Of a stretch of 64,000 nt of DNA, positions 31,827-35,036 are shown one piece after another. The position numbers and the translations under genes are program-made. Under the pieces are notes generated by a model, which did not search any database, was not told the origin of the DNA, and saw only the letters and a list, made by a program, of their open reading frames with translations. The stretch lies in contig NZ_ABTR02000001.1 of the NCBI RefSeq assembly GCF_000172975.1, forward strand, positions 2,084,501 through 2,148,500. The letters are read 5' to 3'. Numbering within the stretch: position 1 is the stretch's first letter; every line of letters begins with the position of its first letter. Source of the stretch: Dethiosulfovibrio peptidovorans DSM 11002 (GTDB lineage Bacteria > Synergistota > Synergistia > Synergistales > Dethiosulfovibrionaceae).

Positions 31827-32285
31827 ATGGAGATACGTATCCCCGTGGTACGGGAAGGGGAAGCCTTAAGGCTTCCCCTTCCCGGCTATGAGACGGATGG
31901 TTCCGCCGGTATGGACCTGATAGCGGCGGAACCTGTGGTGATCCCTCAGGGAAAATGCATGACGGTGGGAACCGGACTCAGAATAGCGGTTCCCGAGGGC
32001 TTCGAGGCCCAGGTTCGCCCAAGAAGCGGCCTGGCTCTCAATAGAGGTCTGGTGGTTCCGAACTCTCCTGGAACCATAGATTCGGATTACAGGGGGGAGC
32101 TCAGGGTAATAATGATGAACCTGGGAGATGATCCCTTCGAGGTGGCAGTAGGCGACAGGATCGCCCAATTGGTGATCGCTCCGGTCGCGAGGGCCTGCTG
32201 GGAGGAAGTCGTTACTTTGGAATCCACCGAGAGAGGCTCCGGTGGATTCGGTAGCACCGGCATCTCGACCCCTTCGAGGAAATAG
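31827..32285 (+). CDS. dut: dUTP diphosphatase
   Basis: The 152-residue trimeric dUTPase has all five family motifs: GSAGMDLIA (1), RPRSGLALNRG (2), GTIDSDYRGEL (3), GDRIAQLVI (4) and the C-terminal ERGSGGFGSTG (5). It removes dUTP from the nucleotide pool and makes dUMP for ThyX, which is encoded in this window at 48127. The ATG begins one base after the pnp stop, so the two are in one transcript. Nothing unusual was seen. Confidence 0.96.
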   Translation: MEIRIPVVREGEALRLPLPGYETDGSAGMDLIAAEPVVIPQGKCMTVGTGLRIAVPEGFEAQVRPRSGLALNRGLVVPNSPGTIDSDYRGELRVIMMNLGDDPFEVAVGDRIAQLVIAPVARACWEEVVTLESTERGSGGFGSTGISTPSRK

Positions 32286-32294
32286 TAGGAGAAT

Positions 32295-32343
32295 GGGGAC
32301 ATCAAGATCCCCTCTAGCGTTGTAAAGGGCCTGGTCGGTCCTT
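32295..32343 (+). promoter_or_regulatory. candidate tRNA-mimic translational operator of thrS
   Basis: In the 75-base gap before thrS, positions 32325-32330 (AAGGGC) pair with 32338-32343 (GTCCTT), leaving a seven-base loop CTGGTCG. Read as an anticodon loop it has U at position 33 and GGU, a threonine anticodon, at 34-36. The hairpin ends about nine bases before the ribosome-binding site. A second hairpin (GGGGA 32295-32299 with TCCCC 32308-32312) lies upstream. E. coli ThrRS represses its own mRNA through similar mimics; the same role here is an inference. Confidence 0.5.
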
Positions 32344-32360
32344 GGAAAGGCAGGTAGGAA

Positions 32361-34253
32361 ATGTATCGTTTTTCCGGTCCCGCCGGGCAGCTTCTCGAGT
32401 CGGAGAAAGCTGTCGTCGGCGATATCTTAAAGGAATGGAAGCTTGACAAGGGAGCTCTCGCGGCCAAGGTGAACGGAGAGGAGCTGGATCTCGACGTAGA
32501 GGTCTCCTGCGATGCCTCGGTGGAGCCCATAACCTCCGATACCGAAGAGGGTCTGGAGATACTGAGACACTCGACCGCCCATCTCTTGGCCCAGGCCGCC
32601 ACCAGACTGTTCCCTGGAGCAGTGGTCGCAATAGGTCCGGTGATAAAGGACGGTTTCTACTACGACATAGAGTTCAAGGAGCCCATCTCAGAGGCGGATC
32701 TGCCCGCACTGGAGAAGGAGATGCGCAGGATAGTCAAGAGGGGAATACCTCTGAAGCGCCAGCGAGTCTCCAGAGAGGAGGCCATCGAGCTCTTCAAGGA
32801 AAGGAAGGATCTCTATAAGGTCGAGATCCTGGAGGGAATAGACGACGATTCGGTCAATCTATACTGGCAGGACGAATACGTCGATCTCTGTCGGGGTCCT
32901 CACGTGCCCAACACCAGGGTGCTCCAGAACTTCAAGCTTCTCTCCGTCGCCGGTGCCTATTGGAGAGGCGACGAAAACAACATCATGCTTACCCGTATAT
33001 ATGGAACCGCCTTCGCCACCAAGGAGGATCTGGAGGCCTACGTCACCAGGATGGAGGAGGCTAAAAAGAGGGATCACCGCAAGATCGGTCGTGAGCTTGG
33101 CTTGTTCTCTCTCCACAAGGAAGGTCCGGGGTTCCCGTTTTTCCATCCCAAGGGTATGGTGGTGATAAACACCCTAATCGACTTCTGGAGCAAGGTGCAC
33201 AGAAAGAACGGTTACGATCAGATAAGGACTCCCATGATTCTTAACAGGGATCTGTGGATACAGTCGGGGCACTGGGATCATTACAGGGAAAACATGTATT
33301 TTACCGAGATAGACGATCAGCCCTACGCCATAAAACCGATGAATTGCCCCGGAGGAATCTTGGTCTATAAGTCGGATCTTCATAGCTATAGAGATCTTCC
33401 CCTCAGGCTCGGCGAGCTCGGGATCGTCCATAGACACGAGAAGTCCGGAGTGTTGCACGGTCTGATGAGGGTCCGTTGTTTCACCCAGGACGACGCACAT
33501 CACTATTGCACCCCCGATCAGATCAAGGACGAGGTCTCCCTGATCATGGACATGGTGGACTACATATACTCCGAGGTGTTCGGCTTCAAGTTCCACGTGG
33601 AACTGTCAACCAGGCCGGATAACTCTATGGGCAGCGACGAGATGTGGGAGTTGGCCGAGAAGTCCCTGAGAGAGGTGCTGGAGGAGAGGGGAACTACCTA
33701 CGTCCTCAACCCCGGAGACGGAGCTTTCTACGGTCCCAAGATAGACTTTCACCTGGAGGACTGCATAGGTAGGACCTGGCAGTGCGGGACTATCCAGCTC
33801 GACTTCCAGATGCCGGAGAAGTTCGACGTCACCTATATAGGCTCGGACGGGAAGGAACATCGTCCTGCCATGCTCCATAGGACCATATTGGGAAGCATCG
33901 AGCGTTTCCTTGGCATACTGATAGAGCACTACGCAGGGGCCTTCCCCTTCTGGATCGCTCCCGTTCAGGTGAAGGTCCTCGCCGTAGGGGACGATCACGT
34001 CGATTACGCCAAGGATTTGAAGGCTTTGCTCCAGGATCGGGAGTATAGGGTTGAACTGGACTGTCGGGACGAAAAGCTCGGTAGGAAGATCAGAGACGCT
34101 CAGATGGAGAAGGTCCCTTTCATGCTGGTCGTCGGAGACAAAGAGCTGGAGACCGGTACCGTCTCAGTGAGAGACCGGTCCGAAGGGGATAAGGGATCCA
34201 TGAGTAAGGAGGATCTACTGGAGCTGCTTAAAGGGCAGTTCTCCCCCTTATAG
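32361..34253 (+). CDS. thrS: threonyl-tRNA synthetase
   Basis: The 630-residue class II synthetase begins with a TGS-like domain (about 1-60), followed by the editing domain with HSTAHLLAQAATRLFP and YVDLCRGPHVPNT, the catalytic core (MNCPGGILVYKSDLHSYRDLPLRL, RVRCFTQDDAHHYC, RPAMLHRTILGSIER, which supply the zinc-binding Cys and His residues) and a C-terminal anticodon domain (VKVLAVGDDHVDYA). ATG 32361 follows AGGTAGGAA. It probably shares the transcript with pnp-dut, as I see no promoter in the gap. The leader holds the tRNA-mimic hairpin described separately; no T-box. Confidence 0.96.
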   Translation: MYRFSGPAGQLLESEKAVVGDILKEWKLDKGALAAKVNGEELDLDVEVSCDASVEPITSDTEEGLEILRHSTAHLLAQAATRLFPGAVVAIGPVIKDGFYYDIEFKEPISEADLPALEKEMRRIVKRGIPLKRQRVSREEAIELFKERKDLYKVEILEGIDDDSVNLYWQDEYVDLCRGPHVPNTRVLQNFKLLSVAGAYWRGDENNIMLTRIYGTAFATKEDLEAYVTRMEEAKKRDHRKIGRELGLFSLHKEGPGFPFFHPKGMVVINTLIDFWSKVHRKNGYDQIRTPMILNRDLWIQSGHWDHYRENMYFTEIDDQPYAIKPMNCPGGILVYKSDLHSYRDLPLRLGELGIVHRHEKSGVLHGLMRVRCFTQDDAHHYCTPDQIKDEVSLIMDMVDYIYSEVFGFKFHVELSTRPDNSMGSDEMWELAEKSLREVLEERGTTYVLNPGDGAFYGPKIDFHLEDCIGRTWQCGTIQLDFQMPEKFDVTYIGSDGKEHRPAMLHRTILGSIERFLGILIEHYAGAFPFWIAPVQVKVLAVGDDHVDYAKDLKALLQDREYRVELDCRDEKLGRKIRDAQMEKVPFMLVVGDKELETGTVSVRDRSEGDKGSMSKEDLLELLKGQFSPL

Positions 34254-34290: not shown

Positions 34291-34315
34291 CTTACGAGTT
34301 ACGATGTAGAAAAGA

Positions 34316-34434
34316 AGGGGATCCCCTCACCTGGCGACGCCTTTAGCAGTTGTCTGGTTCCAGTCGAATCATCGCGCCTCAGGGCGTAGTGTATTTCGTA
34401 CTTTCGAGGGGGCCGTAGTCGGTCCCCTCTTTTT
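34316..34434 (+). promoter_or_regulatory. attenuator-like leader of infC-rpmI-rplT
   Basis: The leader ends in an intrinsic terminator at 34406-34434 (arms GAGGGGGCC and GGTCCCCTC, then five T) only 29 bases before infC. An early palindrome AGGGGATCCCCT (34316-34327) contains CCCCTC at 34323-34328, which could instead pair with GAGGGG at 34406-34411 and prevent the terminator. Several small hairpins lie between. In Bacillus the same operon is controlled by L20 binding to a leader; this looks like an analogous switch. Confidence 0.6.
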
Positions 34435-34463
34435 ACGCCAATCATTCACGGAGGTGAACCGTT

Positions 34464-35036
34464 ATAGCTAAGAAACTTTCTGACGAGCCGAGAGTTAACG
34501 AGGAGATAACCGCACGAGAGGTCCTGGTTATAGACGATCAAGGTGGAAAATTGGGAGTCCTTCCCATAAACGAAGCCCTGGATCTGTCGGCAGGAAAGGA
34601 ACTGGACCTGGTGGAGGTGGCTCCGGGAGCCAAGCCGCCGGTCTGCCGCATCCTGGATTATGGTAAGTTCAGGTATCAGCAGCAGAAGCGGGAGAAGGAC
34701 GCTCGTAAGAAACAGAAGACCCAGACTCTCAAGGAAATGAAGATGCGTCCGAAGATCGACGAACACGATTACAACTTCAAAACCAAGGCCATTAGGAGTT
34801 TCCTGGAGAACGGTCACAGGGTGAAGGTCTCCATATTCTTCAGGGGTAGGGAGATGGCGTTTCTGGATCGCGGCAAGGAAGTGCTGGACAGAGTAGCCAA
34901 GGACTGCGAGGACCTCGGCAAGATGGAGGGCTTCCCCCGCATGGAAGGACGTTACATGCGGATGATGATAACTCCGGTCCAGCAGAAAGAGGTCAAAAAA
35001 TCCCCTAAGAGCGAAAGCGATCAGGGGGAAGAGTAA
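34464..35036 (+). CDS. infC: translation initiation factor IF-3, with AUA start codon
   Basis: The 190-residue factor keeps the ribosomal subunits apart and checks the start codon. The family core is complete: PRVNEEITAREVLVIDDQGG, DLVEVAPGAKPPVCRILDYGKF, a Lys-rich linker and the C-domain KMRPKIDEHDYNFKTKAIRSFL. In this frame a stop codon (TGA 34455) closes the 5' side, and between it and the conserved N-terminal residues the only plausible start is ATA at 34464, seven bases after GGAGGTGA. A TTG at 34551 would delete 29 conserved residues. IF-3 genes commonly use rare start codons, which lets the factor limit its own synthesis. The tail is acidic and probably disordered. Confidence 0.93.
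   Translation: MAKKLSDEPRVNEEITAREVLVIDDQGGKLGVLPINEALDLSAGKELDLVEVAPGAKPPVCRILDYGKFRYQQQKREKDARKKQKTQTLKEMKMRPKIDEHDYNFKTKAIRSFLENGHRVKVSIFFRGREMAFLDRGKEVLDRVAKDCEDLGKMEGFPRMEGRYMRMMITPVQQKEVKKSPKSESDQGEE

Follow-up and report, generated by a model that had tools for sequence, protein, structure and literature searches.

In Escherichia coli, the thrS operator provides the classic example of a synthetase that controls its own synthesis by tRNA mimicry, and a hairpin that carries a threonine anticodon in its loop, located just upstream of thrS in Dethiosulfovibrio peptidovorans DSM 11002, raises the question of whether threonyl-tRNA synthetase (ThrRS) controls its own mRNA in the same manner in the distant phylum Synergistota. 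We analyzed the surrounding 64,000 nucleotides of DNA (hereafter, the window) and read thrS leaders across the Synergistota (n = 173). The relevant features of the window are as follows (hairpin loops in square brackets).

31827–32285, + strand: dut (dUTPase), the ORF upstream of thrS, identified from its translation with the C-terminus GGFGSTG
32295–32312, + strand: distal hairpin GGGGA-CATCAAGA-TCCCC, with GGGGA at 32295–32299 and TCCCC at 32308–32312
32325–32343, + strand: proximal anticodon-arm-like hairpin AAGGGC[CTGGTCG]GTCCTT, the proposed ThrRS operator arm, from sequence, folding and comparison
32333–32335, + strand: putative threonine anticodon mimic GGU (tRNA positions 34–36), with G35 and U36 at 32334–32335
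32352–32358, + strand: probable Shine-Dalgarno region AGGTAGG, read from the sequence
32361–34253, + strand: thrS, threonyl-tRNA synthetase, 630 aa (ORF; TIGR00418, 726 bits, above the cut-off)

The genes run in the order rpsO, pnp, dut, thrS, infC, rpmI/rplT (all names except thrS were read from translations), and the 75-nt gap between dut and thrS contains the reported hairpin. The sequence-only reading had described a six-pair stem with one G:U pair, a CTGGTCG loop, U33 and GGU at positions 34–36, and all of these were confirmed: the strands AAGGGC (32325–32330) and GTCCTT (32338–32343) enclose a 7-nt loop (32331–32337; CUGGUCG in the RNA), which, when read as an anticodon loop, places U33 at 32332 and GGU at 34–36. 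The stem indeed lies close to the thrS ribosome-binding site, as it had been described, with 8 nt from its 3′ end to the first AGG of this site (32352–32354) and 17 nt to the thrS ATG (32361), and the second hairpin mentioned upstream is also present. In a sequence alignment, the ThrRS of the window retains the residues aligned to R583, E600 and R609 of the E. coli enzyme, which we take to be its anticodon contacts.

Upon folding, the proximal hairpin reached −9.9 kcal/mol and was more stable than its shuffles (z −2.45, with 4 of 200 shuffles as good). C32 and G38 of the loop can pair, and the predicted fold thus has 7 bp in the stem and the five-base loop UGGUC; position 37 is C, the corresponding base being A in the tRNA-Thr loops of the same genome. 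A copied tRNA arm was considered and rejected, as the tRNA-Thr anticodon arms of the genome (CAUCC/GGAUG, GCGCA/UGCGC and CUGAU/AUCAG) do not match the stem. The distal hairpin, which is a 6-bp GGGGAC/GTCCCC stem in two close relatives, carries the loop CAUCAAGA, in which inspection of the sequence found neither NGU in register nor a Thr anticodon, and for the window we therefore make no claim to the two-arm form of the operator.

Six congeners of the source genome (G000) are in the collection, and the closest named relative by thrS is a contig of Dethiosulfovibrio sp. at 81%. The exact proximal arm is common only to two relatives, whose ThrRS proteins are 97–98% identical, and a 58-nt identical run spans the arm in three species. 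Sequence conservation was discarded as evidence, since identity in the region around the arm is 92% and still longer stretches without a difference lie nearby. The sequence-only reading had named a lack of conservation in close relatives as the result that would speak against it, and this is in part what we found: the two relatives have the arm, and none was found in the AT-rich thrS leaders of the congeners G003 and G004 or in that of G007, from the same family (f1). Arms of other sequence were present in the congener G002, CGCGG[CCTGTGG]CCGTG, and in the congener G006, CGACGACCC[ATCGTAG]GGGTCGTCG, in which GU is found in the distal hairpin, which forms the arm, and is lacking from the proximal one. 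As a separate observation, two matches to TwoAYGGAY RNA (RF01731; 49 and 55 bits) flank thrS of G003 (L004), one per side, at 347–500 and 2545–2698 on the − strand, where the anticodon arm is absent.

Across the phylum, thrS leaders carry hairpins with unrelated stems and a common loop pattern upstream of the start codon. Besides the window, the clearest cases are from Pyramidobacter, which family f1 holds together with Dethiosulfovibrio (TGCGC[AGAGTCA]GCGCA, TGCGC[AGAGTAA]GTGCA, TGCGC[AAAGTAC]GTGCA and CTGAACGT[CCCGTAT]GCGTTCAG), from family f5 (CGGGGG[GCGGTAT]CCTCCG and CAGGGG[ACGGTAT]CCCCTG), and from one f6 leader (L031) with two arms, GTTTCGTC[AGGGTAG]GGCGGAAC and GCGGA[AGAGTGA]TCCGC, both with GU in register. 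Most of the arms end between −17 and −26. Arms are present in 10 of the 13 f1 species with a readable leader, in 4 of 4 in f5 (two with one A·C mismatch) and in 1 of 2 in f6. Weaker arms, with one mismatch or bulge, showed no excess of GU (1 of 23) in the remaining 83 Synergistota leaders, and among the leaders read the arm is thus limited to f1, f5 and f6. The comparison that had been proposed, for stem changes with the Thr anticodon kept, thus returned different, fully paired stems with GU at 35–36 in three families, although the stem sequence itself is not conserved. The proposed loop set of GGU, UGU or CGU retained its GU and, with AGU present in Pyramidobacter, had to be extended to NGU, and U33, on which the reading had laid stress, is absent from most arms, with loop bases 33 and 37 both varying across the Synergistota. 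In the Pyramidobacter genus group, one genome also has a second ThrRS gene, 45% identical (L059; G009:C12:57587-59287).

For the enrichment test, an arm had to have five or more stem pairs, among them no more than one G:U and at least 3 G-C, enclose a 7-nt loop and end, on its 3′ side, between −60 and −10, and the leaders were clustered by shared sequence with T-box leaders excluded (58 clusters). The pattern had been seen before this rule was written, and the loop criterion came from the sequence-only reading and fits E. coli. As a result, 8 of the 58 thrS clusters had a strict 7-nt-loop hairpin, and 6 of these 8 carried GU at loop positions 4–5 (35–36), whereas 91 of the 665 control upstream regions of this genome had such a hairpin and only 3 of the 91 carried GU in register (Fisher 2e-6; four of the six GU clusters are from f1 and are not fully independent by descent, though their stems do not align). 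When two G:U pairs were permitted, the counts were 7 of 9 clusters versus 4 of 111 control regions (Fisher 1.9e-7). No excess of GU was observed at other loop offsets, and four-pair stems without G:U gave no significant difference (2/5 versus 5/54). Dinucleotide shuffles yielded a mean of 0.18 leaders with GU in register and a maximum of 2 across 300 shuffles, versus 7 observed (f5 leaders unmerged).

In a gapless alignment of 13 arms, G35 and U36 were the sole invariant columns, both-side changes occurred in 5 of 5 pairs, and 64 of 65 cells were paired (98.5%); the arms had been picked as hairpins with GU, and the pairing percentage and the invariant columns are thus partly given by construction, which does not apply to the enrichment test. 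The covariation score was 1.14, whereas shuffles gave 0.27 and sliding no more than 0.39. Because of this choice of arms, the alignment mainly documents unrelated or turned-over stems and is not an independent proof. We also observed one compensatory A-U/G-C change and one G-C/G-U change within f5, and two G-C/G-U changes within Pyramidobacter, from too few sequences for significance alone.

The same scan of E. coli MG1655, used as a positive control, returned GTGATCT[TTCGTGT]GGGTCAC ending at −21, which matches the known domain 2 of the operator (PDB 1kog is presumably ThrRS with this operator). The arms of Proteus, Aeromonas and Vibrio end at −19 to −21, with the loops TGCGTAT, TTGGTAG and TTGGTGT. 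Among the eleven records of a plasmid collection that we checked outside the Synergistota, four showed, near the start codon, a strict arm that carries GU, three of them gammaproteobacteria and one an alphaproteobacterium. No such arm was found in Legionella, Neisseria, Sinorhizobium, Bernardetia, Dolichospermum (start codon uncertain) or Fusobacterium. Acinetobacter had no strict arm, although its leader has TTCGTAT within an imperfect stem. The thrS leader of the alphaproteobacterium Methylobacterium bullatum (L275) contains CCTGC[CTCGTTC]GCAGG ending at −25, with a U33-CGU loop, and this single unreplicated case may be due to chance or represent a further operator.

Chiefly on comparative evidence, we interpret the window hairpin as the anticodon-arm mimic of a ThrRS translational operator, to which we assign a probability of about three in four; the original reading of the hairpin as a thrS operator arm that ThrRS would bind is thus supported. 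By analogy with E. coli thrS, ThrRS in excess over tRNA-Thr would grip the loop with its anticodon-binding domain via G35 and U36, the bound dimer would cover the ribosome-binding site and block loading of the 30S subunit on thrS, and free tRNA-Thr would displace ThrRS from the leader by competition. In the E. coli operator, domain 2 corresponds to the tRNA-Thr anticodon arm and the other arm mimics a second anticodon stem, exchange of the anticodon-like triplet transferred control to MetRS (PMC9976931), and ThrRS binding hinders the ribosome (PMC3858243). The window element resembles this operator in its 7-nt-loop hairpin with GU at 35–36 just 5′ of the ribosome-binding site, in the position of the arm (3′ end at −17; E. 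coli, −21) and in the second hairpin further upstream. It differs in its unrelated stem sequence, in the upstream hairpin without a Thr anticodon, in the phylum and in the location of thrS 75 nt after dut; the two arms of the f6 leader L031 come closer to the two-armed form of E. coli (PMC9976931). The mRNA anticodon mimics of yeast HisRS, ThrRS and AspRS likewise present an anticodon-arm-like element to the synthetase, but they are eukaryotic, with other elements and outcomes (PMC6542539, PMC9956033). The comparison lends good support to an E. coli-like mode of operation outside the Pseudomonadota, for which we found no report of an E. coli-type thrS operator in the open-access literature.

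The hairpin could instead be an intergenic one that happens to show GGU and has no role for ThrRS, the recurrence in the phylum being real but not applicable to this genome. For a single hairpin, such a chance is appreciable: in this genome, GU stands in register in 3 of the 91 upstream regions with a hairpin, and thus before 3 of all 665 genes. The exact element is also limited to three close species, and the whole thrS leader is not more stable than its shuffles, folding little better than they do (z −1.29). However, the hairpin precedes thrS rather than a random gene, the family has the arm in most of its readable leaders, and the cluster-level enrichment is strong; it is the phylum-wide pattern that makes coincidence unlikely. 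Somewhat more doubtful still is a purely structural role, in which the hairpin, as a standby site or as a processing site 3′ of dut, would adjust mRNA stability or the access of ribosomes and no ThrRS would act in trans. A stable GC-rich stem immediately 5′ of the Shine-Dalgarno sequence would suit this role, such hairpins are common in the genome (91 of 665 genes), and the thrS start region is itself predicted to be able to pair, but the recurrence of GU at one loop position on varying stems would be left unexplained, and no terminator-like site was found in the leader.

A degenerate T-box or another tRNA-sensing leader, in place of a protein-binding operator, is highly improbable here. T-boxes (RF00230) do precede thrS in other Synergistota families, where they sense the supply of threonine tRNA: signals were detected in f8 and in parts of f3 and f4, with two leaders (L018 and L021) exceeding the gathering score and the motif present in about 45, while the remaining leaders of the phylum have neither arm nor T-box. 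In a T-box, however, the RNA itself senses the tRNA through a codon, not an anticodon, and an antiterminator, and a terminator is usually needed; the 75-nt gap contains no RF00230 match, antiterminator motif or terminator, and the Rfam search found no family matching the thrS leader and no T-box in the window.

If the window hairpin is indeed a ThrRS operator arm, the tRNA-reading rules of ThrRS would suffice to shape an operator, with the same two anticodon bases on unrelated stems in a distant phylum, and an ancestral versus a repeated origin would become testable. In the ThrRS tree, T-box and unmarked clades separate f1 from f5/f6, and the arm-bearing families do not form one clade, so that the arm may have been lost and replaced in some lineages or may have been gained independently. 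Regarding descent from the gammaproteobacterial operator, the stems do not align, and the arms lie in f1, f5 and f6 of a Synergistota tree with its root and other phyla unsampled. We tentatively propose, at somewhat less than even odds, that ThrRS anticodon-mimic operators form a widespread bacterial class, defined solely by a hairpin that bears G35-U36 and keeps a fixed spacing to the start codon, that this class had several independent origins and was missed by RNA-family models as only two bases are fixed, and that the Synergistota switch between this operator, T-boxes and no apparent control. Such a hairpin, with GU at 35–36, would also serve as a simple search rule for further cases.

Two further observations concern the region downstream of thrS. 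Between thrS and infC, at 34306–34441 on the + strand, the sequence matches the Rfam L20 leader (RF00558; 37.9 bits, E 2.6e-5, below the gathering score of 58.7), and infC-rpmI-rplT probably has here a divergent leader for autoregulation by L20. The infC gene (34464–35036, + strand) has an apparent AUA start at 34464–34466, shortly 3′ of GGAGGTG (34450–34456), and the only alternative start in the ORF list is a TTG inside the gene. Such a start would be uncommon for IF3 and has a parallel in E. coli infC, which begins with AUU.
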